Shown here in pieces: positions 12,824 through 27,728 of a stretch of DNA of 29,514 nt (the first letter of the stretch is position 1; each line of letters begins with the position of its first letter). The notes under the pieces were generated by a model. That model was not told the origin of the DNA, did not search any database, and saw only the letters and a list, made by a program, of their open reading frames with translations. Made by a program: the position numbers and the translations under genes. The stretch spans positions 1 through 29,514 of IMG/VR virus record IMGVR_UViG_3300008459_000262, one strand, 5' to 3'. The stretch comes from a virus.

Positions 12824-13837
12824 ATGTCATCATTCAAACAATTAAACAAGGCGGATGTTACAACAGTAGATTATTCTGCTAATAAGCGATGGTCTTTTTC
12901 ATACACTTCTACTCCTACAGGTAGTATAGCTTTTTATAGAGGAAAAAATGAATTTTTTAACATAGCTGGCTCAACCACAACTAATAGACAATATCAATCG
13001 TCTATATACCACTCTATAAATCACTTATTTTATCAAAATTATACGAGTAGTATAGATACAGGTTCATTAATGTTTAATGTTAATACTTATGAATCTGCTT
13101 CTAGTCAACGTCCTACTTCTTCATATTTTATATATAATGCTAATCCATTATTTATAGATAATTTTCCAACCGCTTCTAATAGTACCATAAGTGTTTTAAA
13201 TATTGGTCAAACTATATATGGTTCAAAAATACTACCATATACATTTAATATTTCTGCTTCTGGTGTTATAATTAATGATGATGGAAATGGAAATTTATTT
13301 GATGTGTCCGCTTTAGGAGATAATTATATAGACTTTGATTATCTATCAGAATTAGCCCCAACATATTTTGATGATCCAACTCCTGGAGTAGGAGCATCTT
13401 TTATAGGAAATATATTCTATGCTCATGGTATGGTAGTTCTTACTAATCAAAGCTCCAGTTACCAAAATTTATTAACAGGATCTTTTAGTAGTACTAAAGT
13501 TTCATTTCAAAATGAACATATCATTTACGAAAATGAAATACGCTGTATAGTTAAAGAAAGCGATTTTAATTTATCATACAACCCCACCCTACTAAAATAC
13601 GGAAACCAATATATAGTACCTATATCAGGTAGCCCTAGTAATGGATACACAACAACAGGATCATTTGATAATACAACTATTAAGGATTTTGCTACTGGAT
13701 CAGTATTCCAGCCATATGTTACAACAATAGGTTTATATAATGATGATAATGAATTATTAATGGTTGCTAAATTAGGTAAACCAATAATGTTATCGCCAGA
13801 CACAGATATGACTTTTATTGTTAAGTATGATACCTAA
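12824..13837 (+). CDS. Structural protein, paralogue B
   Basis: This 337-residue protein is a tandem paralogue of the preceding gene and starts three bases after its stop. The shared C-terminus reads VTTIGLYNDDNELLMVAKL followed by GKPI, and upstream of it KESDFNLSYNPT aligns with KNSEYNYTTNPS of the partner. The N-terminal domains differ, so the pair probably arose by duplication and then specialised, for example into two related ring or fibre subunits. Its stop (TAA) overlaps the ATG of the ParB-like gene. The role is inferred from position at the end of the tail block and from composition. Confidence 0.82.
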   Translation: MSSFKQLNKADVTTVDYSANKRWSFSYTSTPTGSIAFYRGKNEFFNIAGSTTTNRQYQSSIYHSINHLFYQNYTSSIDTGSLMFNVNTYESASSQRPTSSYFIYNANPLFIDNFPTASNSTISVLNIGQTIYGSKILPYTFNISASGVIINDDGNGNLFDVSALGDNYIDFDYLSELAPTYFDDPTPGVGASFIGNIFYAHGMVVLTNQSSSYQNLLTGSFSSTKVSFQNEHIIYENEIRCIVKESDFNLSYNPTLLKYGNQYIVPISGSPSNGYTTTGSFDNTTIKDFATGSVFQPYVTTIGLYNDDNELLMVAKLGKPIMLSPDTDMTFIVKYDT

Positions 13838-14220
13838 TGATTAAACTCATTGACATATTAAAAGAAATTCAATCAATCCAATACACAAAACCAAATTTTG
13901 AGTTTGAATGGGAAGAAGCTACTCGTTACCCTGAATTTGTAGAAATGGGTAAAGAGGGATGGATTGAATTAGCTAATAATGGATATGAAACAAAATATTC
14001 TGAAATAAAGGATGTACTAGGTAATGTTGATTTAGAATTTGATAGTTTATTACCTGACAGAAAACAACGCTTTGAACAAGCATATGAATCAGGAAATATT
14101 GAAATGCCATTAGTTGTTAAGTTTTCTGATAATGACTATGATTTAATTGGAGGAAATACAAGACTTGCTGGATTAATAAGTAAAAATATAGACCCAACAT
14201 TATGGGTTGTTGAATTATAA
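13837..14220 (+). CDS. ParB/Srx-like protein with capsid-targeting-type leader
   Basis: This 127-residue protein begins with MIKLIDILKE, a 10-residue leader shared by several genes here and resembling the T4 internal-protein leader MKTYQEFIAE, which is cut after Glu by the gp21 protease. The C-terminal half has the ParB/sulfiredoxin-fold pattern: a PLVVKF strand, then DYDLIGGNTRLAGL (the GGxxRL nucleotide-binding motif) and a final strand LWVVEL. ParB/Srx folds include CTPases, nucleases and kinases, so the activity is open. The same module recurs inside the 687-residue protein at 16435. It directly follows the tail block with a TAATG overlap. Packaging into the virion is inferred from the leader. 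Confidence 0.82.
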   Translation: MIKLIDILKEIQSIQYTKPNFEFEWEEATRYPEFVEMGKEGWIELANNGYETKYSEIKDVLGNVDLEFDSLLPDRKQRFEQAYESGNIEMPLVVKFSDNDYDLIGGNTRLAGLISKNIDPTLWVVEL

Positions 14221-16434: not shown

Positions 16435-18498
16435 ATGAATTTAGGTCAATACTTAGCAAAACTTATACTAGAAGATGATCAATCATCTATAGAAGATTAC
16501 CAATCCACAATAGCTTTATTCCCAGGTAATTTTAAACCTCCTTATAAGGGACACACAGAGATTGTTAGCAAACTATTAAAAGTAGCTGATCAGGTAGTAG
16601 TATTAATATCTCCTGAAATTAAAGATGGAGTTAGTGCAGATGAAAGTAAAGCAGTGTGGGATTTATATAAACCTGCTCTAGAAGGTTATGTTGAAATTAA
16701 AATATCAGCTTCCAATCCTTTTGATGAAGTTACTAAAGTAATTGAAGATAATCCTGATACTAATTTTATTGTAGCTTTAGGTAATGACAAAATGAATAAA
16801 GTATCAAGCATAGAAAAATATTCAAATGCTAAAGTATTTGATGCTGAAAATGTTGAAGGATCAGAAGCTACTAACTTAAGAATGGCTTTATTAAGTAAAA
16901 ATAATGAAGAAATAGAAAAATATTTACCTGATGGAATATCTGTAGATGAATTTCTTAATGCATTAAATATTAAACCAGCAGAAGAACCACAACCGGAAAC
17001 ACCTCCTGCTCCTCCAGCTGAACCGCCCACACCTGAGCAACCTACAACACCTGAGCAACCGTTACAAGAATCTCCTCCAATTAATTTTGAGGATGAATCA
17101 CCATATGAAGATTATGTAGCACAGAATCGCTCTAAAATAGAAAAAGCAGCAGCTGTATTTAATTTACCAATCCCAGATATGGAATATGCTTTTAATGCTG
17201 GGGGTGAAGTAGTATTAAATGATGATATGTGGAAGGAAATGGAAAATACTAAGTCTTACAATATGAAGACATTAGAAGATGCTATAGCACATTCATTAAA
17301 AATAGGTATCAATCCAAAACCATATATTGATGCTATCAAGAAACAAGAAGATATTCCATTACCTCTTGTATTACAATATGCTCAAGGTAAATATTATTTA
17401 GTTGGAGGTGAAGTTGTATTATCTATCTATAGATCATTAGGTGTAATACCAACTATATTATTAGCTACACTAAATCTACAAACTAAAACACTACCTAAAT
17501 CAATGAATGAAGGTATAGAAGATAGTAGAAAAGAAGCTATAAAAGAGTTTATAAAATATGCTATTAATGAGCTAGGCATACAAAAACCACCCTCAGGTAT
17601 TACTTTATCTAGAGATAATGATAAAGCAAAATCTCGTCGTACATTTGGTACATTTAATCCAAATAATGATAAAATTTGGGTATATGTAGATAATAGAAAC
17701 ATGGCTGATATATTACGTACATTAGCACATGAATTAATACATCGTAAACAAGATGAAGATGGACGTTTAGATCCAAATAGTGGTGAAACGGGTAGTGAAA
17801 TTGAAAATGAAGCAAATGCACAAGCCGGTATATTATTAAGAAAATTCGGTGAACAAAATAATAATATATACGAGGGAAAATATGGTGATCACTTATTTGG
17901 TGATAAAGAATCTGGAGTTAAAATAGGTTGGTACAATGATGAACTAGAAGAAGATACTCCTGCTGAATCAACATTATTTGATCTATTAAAAAAATATGCT
18001 GATTCAGAAGCGGAAACATATTCTAATATTAATTTAGATAATTTAGTTTCTACATTTAAAACAATTAAAAAACAATACCCTGAAATAGGAGAACCTAATG
18101 TAAGTGGGTACATTTATAGAGGTACATCTATACCTGAAGAAAAATTAGCAGAATTAGAAACAAATACTGCAACAGAACAATATAATCAGGGATATATAAT
18201 ACCAGACCAAACATATTCTTCAAGACGTAAAGTTCAATCCTGGAGTACAGAATATTTTCCAGCTGCTGGTTTTGCTGTTACAACAGCAGAACGTAAAGGC
18301 GGAAGACCAGTAATAATGCGAGCTAAAGCAGAAGATGCTGAATTATTCTTTAACCCAAAATTTATGGAAAAACTCAGCACACAACTTGAAGATGAAACAT
18401 TTAATATTACTAGACCTATCCCTGTAGATATAATGGTAATAGAAAACTATAAAGATGAATTTGAAGATATAGAATCAGGTTATTTACATAATAAATAA
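16435..18498 (+). CDS. Polyvalent protein: nucleotidyltransferase + ParB/Srx-like + metallopeptidase + ADP-ribosyltransferase
   Basis: This 687-residue multidomain protein begins with a leader ending LILE (residue 13), then has four modules. (1) About 25-180: a cytidylyltransferase-like nucleotidyltransferase with GNFKPPYKGH (31-40, the HxGH-type motif with H40) and SEATNLR (143-149, like the ISSTxxR motif). (2) A Pro/Glu/Thr linker (about 182-213), then about 220-345 with a ParB/Srx-like segment, IPLPLVLQY and VGGEVVL (323-329). (3) About 355-475: a zincin metallopeptidase, HELIH at 432-436 with E459 in IENEANA as probable third zinc ligand. (4) About 500-687: an R-S-E-type ADP-ribosyltransferase, with R562 in YIYRGTS, S602-W-S-T605 and E652-x-E654. 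The last module recalls T4 Alt, a packaged and injected toxin-like enzyme. Each activity is inferred from motifs; injection from the leader. Confidence 0.88.
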   Translation: MNLGQYLAKLILEDDQSSIEDYQSTIALFPGNFKPPYKGHTEIVSKLLKVADQVVVLISPEIKDGVSADESKAVWDLYKPALEGYVEIKISASNPFDEVTKVIEDNPDTNFIVALGNDKMNKVSSIEKYSNAKVFDAENVEGSEATNLRMALLSKNNEEIEKYLPDGISVDEFLNALNIKPAEEPQPETPPAPPAEPPTPEQPTTPEQPLQESPPINFEDESPYEDYVAQNRSKIEKAAAVFNLPIPDMEYAFNAGGEVVLNDDMWKEMENTKSYNMKTLEDAIAHSLKIGINPKPYIDAIKKQEDIPLPLVLQYAQGKYYLVGGEVVLSIYRSLGVIPTILLATLNLQTKTLPKSMNEGIEDSRKEAIKEFIKYAINELGIQKPPSGITLSRDNDKAKSRRTFGTFNPNNDKIWVYVDNRNMADILRTLAHELIHRKQDEDGRLDPNSGETGSEIENEANAQAGILLRKFGEQNNNIYEGKYGDHLFGDKESGVKIGWYNDELEEDTPAESTLFDLLKKYADSEAETYSNINLDNLVSTFKTIKKQYPEIGEPNVSGYIYRGTSIPEEKLAELETNTATEQYNQGYIIPDQTYSSRRKVQSWSTEYFPAAGFAVTTAERKGGRPVIMRAKAEDAELFFNPKFMEKLSTQLEDETFNITRPIPVDIMVIENYKDEFEDIESGYLHNK

Positions 18499-19121: not shown

Positions 19122-19418
19122 ATGAATATGGATAATAATGTATGGACAGTACTAATCACAGCAATTACAGTTTTTGGAGGTAGTCAAGCGTTTCGTTACT
19201 ATGAAAGACGAGCAATGCATAAAGAAAGAGATGATGATTTTATTCGTCATGATTGTAAAGATCGCATATCTAAATTAGAAGCACTACTAGAAGAATCAGC
19301 ACGTGAAAAAGATGAAATGCGCTCTTTAATCATTAGACTAACATCAGAAGTAGCTGAATTACGTGTTAAAGTTGAGTATCTAACTAATGAAAATACTAAA
19401 TTATCTAAAAATAAATGA
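19122..19418 (+). CDS. Small membrane-anchored coiled-coil protein
   Basis: This 98-residue protein has one N-terminal membrane segment (about residues 7-25, VWTVLITAITVFGGSQAF) followed by a basic stretch (RYYERRAMHKERDDD). A long heptad-like helix follows (about 45-95; KLEALLEESAREKDEM continuing to the end). This one-helix anchor plus coiled-coil layout is seen in holin-associated, spanin-like and lysis-control proteins, but no endolysin is near, so the function is unassigned. MNMD gives two possible starts, 19122 or 19128. Its TGA stop overlaps the ATG of the next, leader-bearing gene (ATGA), one of only two TGA stops in the window. Confidence 0.78.
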   Translation: MNMDNNVWTVLITAITVFGGSQAFRYYERRAMHKERDDDFIRHDCKDRISKLEALLEESAREKDEMRSLIIRLTSEVAELRVKVEYLTNENTKLSKNK

Positions 19419-19672
19419 TAAAGTTAATCGACATATTAAAAGAACATGAAGAGGGGGAAGAATATCCCCCATATATGTTTTCACCAATAGGCTTTGGCTG
19501 TCACGTTTGTAATTACTACTATGTAGAAGATGATAAACATATGTGTAGTAATAAAGAATACCAAAAATATAAAGGTACTGATGAATTAGTTGATGATGAA
19601 GGTAATCAAATTAAAGATCCTTCAAAATGGTGCTCAAATTGGTTTGAACCAAAAACAAATAATAATGATTAA
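19415..19672 (+). CDS. Leader-bearing four-cysteine small protein
   Basis: This 85-residue protein begins with MIKLIDILKE, identical in sequence to the leader of the gene at 13837, so cleavage after E10 by a prohead protease is predicted. The mature 75 residues contain exactly four Cys: C29-x2-C32 (FGCHVCNYYY), C44 and C73 (KWCSNWF). They are set among many Tyr and Trp, a spacing suited to a zinc or iron-sulfur site (a high-potential iron-sulfur-like fold is one possibility). The family is not recognised. The start overlaps the upstream TGA, and its last codons overlap the next leader-bearing gene by eight bases. Virion packaging is inferred. Confidence 0.78.
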   Translation: MIKLIDILKEHEEGEEYPPYMFSPIGFGCHVCNYYYVEDDKHMCSNKEYQKYKGTDELVDDEGNQIKDPSKWCSNWFEPKTNNND

Positions 19673-20357
19673 ACTATCAGAACTATTAAATGAGAATAAA
19701 GTAGACTATTATGTAGATAGAGAAGGAAATCAATTCCAGACTATCGATGTAAATTATCTACAAAATCCTGGTCTAGTAATGGTAAAATATGATAATAGTA
19801 ATGAACCAATAGAATATGAAGGTAACTTTCAAGCAGACTTAAAATCAGGTATTATTAAGCGTTTAGATAGTGAAATTAATGAAGCTTTTTTTATTGGTGA
19901 AAATCAAACTATCACATGTGAAGAATGTGGATGGGAATGGGAATTAGAAGCAGGAGGAGATGATCCATACACTTGCCACAAATGTGGATGTAACAATAGT
20001 GATCAGATGATAGAGGAATATGATGTTGAAAATGCAGATGATATTAAAGAATTTGTCGAATTCATGCGTGAATATCAACAACAACTAAATGAGGCTGATT
20101 GTGACTGTTTACTTGAAGCTGAATATCAAGGCCGTACTGTGCCACTAGGTAAACCAATGCGTGGTGATAGTAAAAAATTTAAAGTATACGTTAAAAACCC
20201 CAAAACAGGTAAAGTTGTTAAAGTAAACTTTGGAGCCAAGGGTATGAACATCAAAAAGAATAATCCAGTAAGACGTAAAGCATTTAGAGCTAGACATAAC
20301 TGTGCCAACCCAGGTCCACGTACTAAAGCAAGATATTGGTCTTGTAGAAAATGGTAA
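19665..20357 (+). CDS. Leader-bearing zinc-ribbon protein with basic C-terminal domain
   Basis: The start is set at 19665 (MIKLSELLNE), although the frame is open 75 bases upstream, because the leader matches its neighbours. The 230-residue protein has a zinc ribbon (C85-x2-C88 and C104-x2-C107, CEECGWEW and CHKCGCNN). Two internal (L/I)-x-E-Ala sites follow: L141-N-E143 and L149-L-E151. The basic C-terminal domain (about 153-230) has KKFKVYVKNPKTGKVVKVNF, RRKAFRARHNC and ARYWSCRKW. I recall this C-terminal domain as a stand-alone conserved phage domain. Three cleavage-type sites suggest that the leader, acidic half and basic domain are separated in the capsid. The basic domain would suit DNA binding. 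These are inferences. Confidence 0.83.
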   Translation: MIKLSELLNENKVDYYVDREGNQFQTIDVNYLQNPGLVMVKYDNSNEPIEYEGNFQADLKSGIIKRLDSEINEAFFIGENQTITCEECGWEWELEAGGDDPYTCHKCGCNNSDQMIEEYDVENADDIKEFVEFMREYQQQLNEADCDCLLEAEYQGRTVPLGKPMRGDSKKFKVYVKNPKTGKVVKVNFGAKGMNIKKNNPVRRKAFRARHNCANPGPRTKARYWSCRKW

Positions 20358-20360
20358 ACA

Positions 20361-20756
20361 ATGATTAAACTACAAGACATATTATTTGAAATGATGCTTG
20401 GCGAAGATCGCTGCAAGCGCATTGCTGATCGCAAATACGATAAACCATCTGCCTATAAGTCAGGTGCTATTGTACGTTGCCGTAAAGGTAATATATGGAA
20501 AGGATTGAAGGAAGACGAGCAACTAGATGAAAAACAAAAAGAAACACTACGCACTTGGTTTAAACGCAAAGGTGCTCCTGGTAAAACAGGCGGTTGGGTA
20601 GATTGTAATACATGTCGCGAAGTAGATGGTAAAACTAAATGTAAACCTTGTGGTAGACAGAAAGGTGAAAAGCGAGCAAAATATCCATCTTGCCGCCCAA
20701 CAGTATCAGCATGTAAACAACCAGGTAAAGGTAAAAAATGGGGTAAAACAAAATAA
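20361..20756 (+). CDS. Leader-bearing basic Cys-rich protein (DUF5872-like)
   Basis: This 131-residue protein begins with MIKLQDILFE, so L8-F-E10 is a predicted prohead-protease site. The mature part is strongly basic. Residues about 14-50 have the pattern CKRIADRKYDKPSAY and GAIVRCRKGNIWKG. Residues about 65-125 have W79-V-D-C82 and C85, C94, C97 and the YPSCRPT segment, which I recall as a conserved phage domain (DUF5872; name from memory). It is three bases from the preceding leader-bearing protein, whose C-terminal domain is similarly basic and ends in Cys/Trp. Together they may be packaged DNA-binding proteins. The function is unknown and the DNA-binding role is inferred from charge. Confidence 0.82.
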   Translation: MIKLQDILFEMMLGEDRCKRIADRKYDKPSAYKSGAIVRCRKGNIWKGLKEDEQLDEKQKETLRTWFKRKGAPGKTGGWVDCNTCREVDGKTKCKPCGRQKGEKRAKYPSCRPTVSACKQPGKGKKWGKTK

Positions 20757-26352: not shown

Positions 26353-26745
26353 ATGGAACTTATAAAGGAAGCAAAACGTTTTCAAAAATTAGCCGGTATA
26401 TTAAAGGAACAACCCGAAGATCAACAACCTGAGGAAGAAACCCCACCTGCGGACACTCCAGAAACTCCTCAAGGACCTATCAGTAAAGCTGAGGCTAAAC
26501 AAATGATTAGGGATACTAAAGGTAAATTCTTTACAGTAACATTTATTAAAAAAGATGGTACAACACGTGTAATGAATGCTCGTTTAGGAGTTAAAGCATA
26601 CCTAAAAGGTGGTGAATTACCCTATGATCCTGAAGAAAAAGGATTAATACCAGTATATGATGTAAAAACAAAAGATTATAGAATGGTAAATATTAATACC
26701 ATTACTAAATTAAAGATTGGTAATAACGAATACGAAGTAAGGTAA
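26353..26745 (+). CDS. Leader-type protein with SH3-like barrel
   Basis: This 130-residue protein has an N-terminal leader (residues 1-19, MELIKEAKRFQKLAGILKE) with two (L/I)-x-E sites, I4-K-E6-Ala and L17-K-E19. A Pro/Glu/Thr linker follows (about 20-42, PEEETPPADTPETPQ), then a compact beta domain (about 45-130): GKFFTVTFIKKDGTTRVMNA, LGVKAYLKGGE and YRMVNINTITKL. I recall this domain from phage proteins labelled SH3 beta-barrel fold. It may bind nucleic acid or another virion protein. Its stop overlaps the ATG of the phosphoribosyltransferase-like gene. Cleavage and packaging are inferred from the leader. Confidence 0.83.
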   Translation: MELIKEAKRFQKLAGILKEQPEDQQPEEETPPADTPETPQGPISKAEAKQMIRDTKGKFFTVTFIKKDGTTRVMNARLGVKAYLKGGELPYDPEEKGLIPVYDVKTKDYRMVNINTITKLKIGNNEYEVR

Positions 26746-27728
26746 TGATTAAACTAGTCGACATACTAAAAGAATTATTAGTAGAAGGAATTAATTTAGA
26801 TAAGACAACCGGTAAAACTATTATTAGTAATACTAATAATTCCGATGATTTACTATTTACGGGTGGTTTAAAAGAAGCTACTATTTCTGGAGTAGATGTT
26901 TGGTATAGCATTGAATATAATAAGGATAATCCCAATGCTGATGATATGGCTATACTAGCTGATAATATAAAAGAATTAAAAAATGTAGACCAGACTCAAA
27001 TTCATGATCTTATTAAAAAAGATATTGAAAAATTGCTTGATATATATACATTTAAACCAAAAACAGTATATTATTTAGATTCAAGCGCTCCTTTATCTAA
27101 ATTAATAGGAAATATAATTAAAGAAATAGATCCTAAAATTGATGTTTTACCTTTATATAAAATAAAATGGCCTTCTTCAAAAGACTTATTAGTTAGTAAT
27201 TATAAAGAACTAATTAGTTCTCCTAGCATTCTTTCTTCTGTAGAAGAAATAGCTCAGAAAGTATGGGAAAAAAATGATGGGAAATTTAAAAGTACAGGTA
27301 TACCACCTAAATATAGAGCTTATTTTAAATCTAAATATGACTTAGATAAAATATTAGAAAAAAATTCAATACTGTTTGTAGATGATAATATCCAAACAGG
27401 AACTGATTTTAAATCTATAAATGATAAATTTAAGGATAGCTCTCATATTGCTTTTTATACTGCTATAAGACTTAGTAGAACAGGGAAAAAAACAACTCCT
27501 GCTTCAATTGCTGCTAAATCAAATAAAATTCCTTCTATCTTTAAATTTACTGAATCAGATTTAAAACAGTTTAGTAATGGATTAGGATTAAAAAGTACAT
27601 ATAATGAACTTAAAAAACTACAAGACAAAGGATATGTAGAAAAAGGTTCTACTGTTCTTCCTAATGGAACAACATATTATTTCTTTAAAAATAAAGAACT
27701 AAAAATAGCAGACTTATTAAAAAAATAA
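26745..27728 (+). CDS. Leader-bearing phosphoribosyltransferase-like protein
   Basis: This 327-residue protein begins with MIKLVDILKE, the standard leader of this genome. Its body includes residues 212-222, VDDNIQTGTDF, a good match to the PRPP-binding loop (V-D-D-x-x-x-T-G-x-T) of type I phosphoribosyltransferases. A YYLDSSAPLSKLIGNIIKEI segment (about 107-126) fits the Rossmann-like helix upstream of it. The N-terminal 100 residues are beta/alpha and unassigned. Type I enzymes act in nucleotide salvage, but some toxin and effector systems use the same fold, so substrate and role are open. As a putative injected enzyme it might act on host nucleotide pools. It is followed by the strongest terminator in the window. 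Confidence 0.85.
   Translation: MIKLVDILKELLVEGINLDKTTGKTIISNTNNSDDLLFTGGLKEATISGVDVWYSIEYNKDNPNADDMAILADNIKELKNVDQTQIHDLIKKDIEKLLDIYTFKPKTVYYLDSSAPLSKLIGNIIKEIDPKIDVLPLYKIKWPSSKDLLVSNYKELISSPSILSSVEEIAQKVWEKNDGKFKSTGIPPKYRAYFKSKYDLDKILEKNSILFVDDNIQTGTDFKSINDKFKDSSHIAFYTAIRLSRTGKKTTPASIAAKSNKIPSIFKFTESDLKQFSNGLGLKSTYNELKKLQDKGYVEKGSTVLPNGTTYYFFKNKELKIADLLKK

Follow-up and report, generated by a model that had tools for sequence, protein, structure and literature searches.

Organization of the locus

The window, that is, the whole stretch of DNA analysed, is a 29.5-kb virus record whose tail genes are T4-like by reading of its open frames. A rightwards-transcribed gene at 19665–20357 encodes a predicted 230-aa protein, and several other genes in the window start with a similar short leader. 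The features are as follows.

13837–14220, +, 127-aa leader gene of the same set (MIKLIDILKE)
16435–18498, +, 687-aa fusion with a leader-like start; N-terminal part cytidylyltransferase-like (phrog_395, 4.1e-7)
19415–19672, +, upstream Cys-rich gene, 85 aa, with leader MIKLIDILKE...
19665–19694, +, leader of the 230-aa protein (residues 1–10, MIKLSELLNE), ending in L8-N-E10; same register as T4 IPII/IPIII
19695–19883, +, N-terminal domain (residues 11–73), ending in I71-N-E73/A; missing from several relatives
19884–19901, +, short peptide AFFIGE (residues 74–79) between two sites
19902–20018, +, zinc-ribbon module D (CxxC...CxxC; residues 80–118), assigned from sequence
20019–20093, +, acidic segment E (residues 119–143, net charge −6), ending in L141-N-E143/A
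20094–20117, +, spacer ADCDCLLE (residues 144–151), ending in L149-L-E151/A
20118–20354, +, C-terminal basic module F (residues 152–230); phrog_7595 (E 4.8e-12, covering positions 8–96 of the 96 in the profile) and fold prediction
20361–20756, +, next gene, 131 aa, Cys-rich and basic, with leader (residues 1–10) MIKLQDILFE
26745–27728, +, 327-aa leader gene (MIKLVDILKE) with a weak PRTase-CE match

The T4 prohead protease gp21 (Peptidase_S77) is described as cutting after L/I-x-E, with leader residues 4 and 7 serving in targeting and residues 8 and 10 governing processing (PMC9026906). An earlier, sequence-only reading had placed three prohead-protease-type sites in the 230-aa protein, and the translation of 19665–20357 has all of them at exactly the positions claimed (L8-N-E10, L141-N-E143-A and L149-L-E151-A). 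Two more good sites lie at residues 71–73 (I71-N-E73/A) and 77–79 (I77-G-E79-N), such that L8NE, I71NE, I77GE, L141NE and L149LE all conform to L/I-x-E. The leader MIKLSELLNE has the form of a T4-type capsid-targeting sequence (~10 residues, hydrophobic at 8, Glu at 10); that of T4 IPII and IPIII is MKTYQEFIAE (NC_000866). The motif [LIVMF]xE occurs 11 times in the protein against a shuffled mean of 5.2 (11 or more in 0.64% of 5000 shuffles), and [LI]xE[AGS] three times against 0.35 (0.32% of shuffles reach three); on these tests and those on joint linkers described below, a chance origin of the motifs was set aside.

Residues 1–151 have a net charge of −26 and residues 152–230 of +21. The two internal sites had been read as lying on either side of an acidic segment and just before a basic domain. 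The basic domain stands, but the sites do not flank the acidic segment; both are at the C-terminal end of the main acidic segment (119–143), where they bracket the 8-residue Cys-x-Cys peptide. The protein does not reach the Pfam gathering score of DUF5754 (PF19058; 16.8 versus 27.4 bits), and Pfam, PHROG and NCBIfam gave no match to a metallopeptidase or other polyvalent-protein effector domain.

The gene at 20361 encodes module H (about residues 16–51) and module A (residues 58–131), with internal sites at L49-K-E51 and L55-D-E57; its module A passes the gathering score of DUF5872 (PF19197; 33.4 versus 27.5 bits, 7.4e-8). Its product had been described as leader-bearing, basic and Cys-rich, all of which is confirmed, and as the same kind of product made in a second way, which needs correction: this gene, too, joins two modules and has sites inside the chain, so that both genes look alike in plan.

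All five window genes that match a strict leader pattern start with MIKL. The pattern occurs at 5 of 142 Met codons in the window and at 41 of 8875 non-Met codons (rate ratio 7.6); the corresponding figures at Met codons are 10/964 in G002 (rate ratio 4.1) and 6/1145 in G001 (3.0). On two long contigs, most leader genes are near tail and head genes. In the 687-aa fusion the middle is metallopeptidase-like (phrog_87, 7.3e-4; AHELIHRKQD) and the C-terminal part has no match; this protein too is a candidate polyprotein. A WYL_2 domain protein (2e-8) encoded at 26353–26745 has the leader-like start MELIKEAKRFQKLAGILKE.

Conservation of the sites among relatives

A scan of viral contigs with the 230-aa protein yielded at least 599 relatives, the best 80 of which were used, and the C-terminal module is in an open frame at all 80 of these loci. 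Its upstream context is readable in 78 of 81 frames, corresponding to 60 unique contexts (of the other three, one is cut short, one was missed by the pattern, and one is a different gene of locus L004). The conservation that the sequence-only reading had proposed to look for is present in these best 80 of at least 599 relatives: a Glu with a hydrophobic residue at P3 ([VLMI]-x-E) directly precedes module F in 60/60 unique contexts, and a second [LI]xE site with the Cys-x-Cys spacer is found in 58/60, the exceptions (L040 and L078) having a single site and no spacer. Among 23 aligned sequences including that of the window, L141, E143, C146, C148, E151 and A152 are invariant, as is L4 of the leader, and L8 and E10 are at least 90% conserved.

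The Cys-x-Cys pair of the 144–151 peptide (20094–20117) is kept in those 58 contexts though the peptide would merely be a cleaved spacer, and a metal or redox role for it is possible.

Two observations on the site before module F count against the proposed processing. The P3 residue at the module F site is V in 40, L in 11, M in 7 and I in 2 of the 60 contexts, and the predominant Val is outside the published L/I-x-E rule for T4, which counts against cleavage by a gp21-type protease. A second set of 80 loci, obtained by a scan with a diverse module F alignment, has a recognisable module start in 69, with [LIVMF]xE directly before the module in 41, a Glu with a non-hydrophobic P3 residue in one, and neither in 27; in nine of those 27 the motif is, by reading, one residue further upstream. 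In total, 50/69 fit the site and 19/69 are without it, which counts against the polyprotein reading.

Modules and joints

The relatives are mosaic proteins assembled from about nine modules that can be exchanged, and the acidic segment with its module F tail is preceded by very different material among them. In L007 the leader LNE is joined straight to AFFIGE, L001 has the order leader/N-domain/AFFIGE, L004 has an extra segment inserted at the LNE/N joint (leader/extra domain/N-domain/AFFIGE), the leader of L003 is followed by the zinc ribbon, and other relatives have long chains; by reading, these changes of architecture fall at LxE. Zinc ribbon D is located before the acidic segment in the window, and between modules H and A of another L004 gene (H-D-A / E-F). 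Two genes in L002 (H-A and D-E-F) correspond to a single gene in L078 (H-A-E-F); by reading, the linker of the L078 gene is similar to the leader of the D-E-F gene of L002, as though a fusion had joined two leader-bearing genes. When the first 80 loci are taken together with the window and with four 20-kb pieces from G001 and G002, the modules form 19 gene arrangements; a contig end truncates two of these, and two of the pieces show none. The patterns used for this count miss the window's 20361 gene.

Module cores were set by their own Cys, Trp and Gly patterns, independently of the motif, and linkers between cores were compared with shuffled versions. [LIVMF]xE is present in 80 of 89 linkers of non-redundant proteins (shuffled mean 42.4, maximum 57 in 2000 shuffles), with 159 motifs against 63.9 (SD 6.6), a 2.5-fold excess, and the reversed motif is at chance level (67 against 64.8). 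The shuffles take no account of relatedness among linkers, for which the control motifs serve as a guard. If the joint between acidic segment and module F is left out, 51 of 60 linkers have the motif (shuffled 30.2), with 103 motifs against 50.0, although the reversed motif is then also somewhat raised (67 against 49.9, SD 6.2). With near-identical linkers removed the values are 33/36 (19.0), 74 motifs against 35.4, and 42 against 35.9 for the reversed motif. [LI]xE is enriched in linkers (95 against 36.3) and [AGST]xE is depleted (34 against 73.2); Glu-x-hydrophobic, hydrophobic-x-x-Glu and hydrophobic-Glu are at chance level, as is [LIVMF]xE within the module cores (39 against 34.7).

This comparison of cores and linkers replaced a test on homology breakpoints, which was dropped: of 334 breakpoints, 173 have [LIVMF]xE no more than 3 residues away where 67 would be expected, but enrichment is also seen for the motif in reverse (108 against 39.9), so the breakpoint test is unspecific.

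The joints also bear on an alternative in which the leader alone is cut, the internal LxE motifs belong to acidic helical linkers between folded domains, and the multidomain protein otherwise remains intact within the head. Of all the elements the leader has the best support, the acidic linkers are Glu-rich, and some joints are without the motif (all six A-S linkers and two of four D-E linkers), the last of which counts against the polyprotein reading. However, it is specifically the hydrophobic-x-Glu order that is enriched in linkers, with control orders at chance and [AGST]xE depleted, and the Glu is right before module F in every unique context, exactly where stand-alone versions of the module start (see below). 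Retention of an intact protein after loss of the leader is accordingly unlikely.

Protease genes and stand-alone modules in related phages

gp21 (PF03420) was not found within the 29.5-kb window fragment, a point against the proposed processing; it is present in the 61.8-kb contig of L001, the closest relative among the best 80 of at least 599. Overall, PF03420 is found in six of eight contigs with relatives, and the two misses are 41- and 74-kb fragments. The phage comparison covers the genes of 14 of the 26 records matched by the 230-aa protein and of ten more, hand-picked, that came from matches to modules A and B and to the CRP-6 protein. Eight of these 24 named phages have gp21 (HTVC008M, C48C1, immuto, Melnitz-3, S-BM3, Sf-CH8, S-SM2 and S-T4), and every one of them has xE sites before its modules or at the joints between them. 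Among the 16 phages lacking gp21, 14 have modules as separate short genes, and two have an F-type module at the N terminus of an XkdF-type protease, namely Roseobacter phage CRP-6 (PF14550, 7.2e-18; L093 786–1475) and Aeromonas phage 4L372XY (1.9e-20; L140 1252–2175). The association between protease and fused modules is confounded by phage lineage.

Stand-alone C-terminal modules occur in two forms. Leaderless versions are found in five phages without gp21 (Kolga, HTVC111P, HTVC026P, HTVC202P and CRP-902) and start with a Met-Ala that aligns to E151-A152, i.e. at the predicted mature end. The other form, with its own leader as the sequence-only reading had suggested might exist in homologues, is found in C48C1, which has gp21 and in which a T4-type leader precedes the module (MKKFKQYIDE/G...LTE/A). 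In Pelagibacter phage HTVC008M, Flavobacterium phage immuto and Methylophilales phage Melnitz, the freed module F is predicted to begin with AEFQGKK, GEYRGKD and SEYQGKD. HTVC027P and HTVC203P, both without gp21, encode modules H and A in two neighbouring genes. In phage DSL-LC04 (L132 1182–1431) a module A open frame lies beside module B and is unannotated in the record.

In a by-eye alignment with T4 gp23, the position of FLTE/A is occupied by [LV]xE in the major capsid proteins of all 11 phages or contigs examined; five of the 11 have Val at P3, matching the Val before module F. All eight gp21 homologues, of ten, whose start was read have [LI]xE near their own N terminus. Among 26 contigs hand-chosen from the second set of loci, 13 having the site directly before the module and 13 lacking it, gp21 was found in two, both with the site, and PF14550 in none; nearly all of these contigs are fragments, which makes the comparison a weak one. 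The largest contigs without the site (152 and 102 kb) are without gp21 and the largest with it (147 kb) has gp21, although a 90-kb contig with the site is also without gp21.

Predicted structure of module F

AlphaFold models the whole 230-aa protein poorly (pLDDT 44.9, pTM 0.23), and the best-modelled part is zinc-ribbon module D (block pLDDT 72–78). Module F modelled alone from A152 gives a pLDDT of 90.2 and a pTM of 0.75, with two main strands and two helices, and is thus confidently predicted to fold autonomously when started at that residue. Foldseek, VIA-align and a sequence profile gave no clear match to solved structures (VIA-align Z at most 2.4; best profile E 0.87). Foldseek listed Cren7 chromatin proteins at E of 1.6 or more, and a DNA-binding fold is not claimed. 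A viral structure library gave 15 matches at E ≤ 0.001, including one XkdF and one ChaB entry, the remainder being uncharacterised or unnamed.

The predicted fold is relevant to the possibility that the fusions are scaffold like T4 gp22 and gp67, degraded and cleared during maturation, with modules that have no later role. T4 gp21 is reported to cut core proteins into many fragments (PMC9026906), and the sequences of gp22, gp67 and gp68 are full of such motifs. In the mosaic proteins, by contrast, motifs are at chance within module cores, module F has a compact and conserved predicted fold, and phages lacking the protease keep the modules as separate genes, all of which makes a purely scaffolding role very unlikely.

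Module-bearing proteins in cyanophage virions

The nearest experimental support comes from module-bearing relatives in the virion proteomes of two cyanophages, S-CREM2 and S-SZBM1. S-CREM2 ORF160 is reported from virions with 7 unique peptides and 13.1% coverage (PMC10665884), and by reading has modules of types A, C and H with xE sites at the joints; the assignment is supported by a match to phrog_727 (9.1e-49), which it shares with an S-SM2 protein. S-SZBM1_139, reported with 4 peptides and 10.5% coverage (PMC9146016), has by reading a module C after MTE. The virion tables of both phages also list cytidylyltransferases (PMC10665884, PMC9146016), with leaders MKNFSSFLTE/A and MRFRQFIIE/A. The S-CREM2 authors themselves state that such proteins might be preparation contaminants (PMC10665884). 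S-SZBM1 191, 192 and 194 are absent from the virion table of that phage (PMC9146016); 194 is a 707-aa mosaic in the same position between gp16 and gp17, and its absence counts against the reading of these proteins as capsid cargo.

Residues 17–70 of ORF160 (L145 7943–8836) match phrog_696 (4.8e-10), a family labelled major head protein; the source of that label may be virion proteomics. S-SZBM1_191 and _192 (L146 37312–38126) have leaders MKSFKSFLSE and MKTFKQYITE; the second of these closely resembles the leader of T4 internal proteins.

The same data bear on whether these are virion proteins at all. The leader and motifs could instead be, for example, the docking helix of a cytoplasmic host-takeover protein, and in its favour the two window genes are known from sequence, and S-SZBM1_194 is missing from the virion table. 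Against this, module-bearing proteins were detected in S-CREM2 and S-SZBM1 virions, most leader genes on two long contigs are near tail and head genes, CRP-6 has module F fused to a prohead protease of the XkdF type, and the viral structure library has an XkdF-annotated entry with this fold. A role outside the virion is therefore highly improbable.

Proposed processing and its implications

The 230-aa protein is probably a capsid-targeted pro-polyprotein of a T4-like phage that is cut by a gp21-type protease to free a basic module. The sequence-only reading of a polyprotein thus gains support from the comparison, through site conservation and stand-alone modules. From its sequence we infer that the protein would be located inside the capsid, be cleaved there and bind DNA.

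In the proposed sequence of events, the 10-residue leader would bring the precursor into the prohead core in the manner of the T4 capsid-targeting sequence. At maturation a gp21-type protease (Peptidase_S77) would cut after the Glu of [L/I/V/M]-x-E, which would take off the leader and sever the chain at 143 and 151, and probably at 73 and 79 too; these cuts are proposed because the sites are conserved, match the capsid-protein site of related phages and coincide with module boundaries. The 79-residue, +21 module (152–230) would be freed from the −26 half, such that a basic, probably nucleic-acid-binding module is kept near charge-neutral, by computed charges, until the head is assembled. By analogy with T4 internal proteins, the module would remain with the phage DNA and may enter the host by ejection. 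The 20361 gene would encode a second such polyprotein, both belonging to a mosaic family with modules meeting at protease sites.

A broader interpretation, to which we give somewhat better than even chances, is a general payload system of T4-like aquatic phages in which once-separate genes for small basic Cys-rich proteins, each with its own capsid-targeting leader, have been concatenated, the sites are both cleavage points and recombination joints, and the charge of the basic modules is offset by acidic segments and linkers up to their release by the prohead protease; the GC119-type proteins that cyanophages encode between gp16 and gp17 would belong to it. With protease sites doubling as recombination joints, cargo could be added, lost or swapped without new targeting. 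If correct, several families of unknown function that keep recurring in phages of aquatic habitats would be assigned a location and a route of processing, their bewildering fusions would be explained, and a DNA phage would be seen to produce its capsid cargo in polyprotein form, for cleavage by the maturation protease. The question of what marine T4-like phages load into their heads and deliver by injection would then be directly testable.

Comparison with known systems

No description of such polyproteins was recognised in the open-licence literature. The family names DUF5872, DUF5754 and DUF6321 and that of the cyanophage cluster T4-GC119 give no function; module A of the 20361 gene passes DUF5872, cyanophage proteins labelled GC119 have modules of the same kinds, and in the accessible part of PMC3037559 GC119 appears merely as a hypothetical protein of a gene cassette. 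Polyvalent proteins are described as multidomain phage proteins, predicted to be packaged with DNA, mosaic, and with processing proposed (Iyer et al. 2017, PMC5512222). The mosaic multidomain plan and the proposed processing are alike, but there the proposed agent is a metallopeptidase in the same chain, whereas the modules here are small, Cys-rich and basic and the prohead protease would be a separate protein.

Like the T4 core proteins gp22 and gp67, the 230-aa protein has acidic segments and would receive several cuts per chain; however, the T4 proteins are degraded to peptides, whereas the mosaic proteins have conserved cores between their sites, one of them at least with a compact predicted fold. 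In leader and cargo the protein resembles T4 IPI, IPII, IPIII and Alt, which have a 10-residue leader in which positions 4, 7 and 8 are hydrophobic or aromatic and position 10 is Glu; the internal proteins are likewise basic cargo, and a gp21-type protease is present in genomes related to the window. Alt is reported to be cut at both ends, at ITE-6 and LTE-619 (PMC5694885). Each T4 internal protein yields one mature part, whereas the proteins described here contain several unrelated small modules with sites at their joints.
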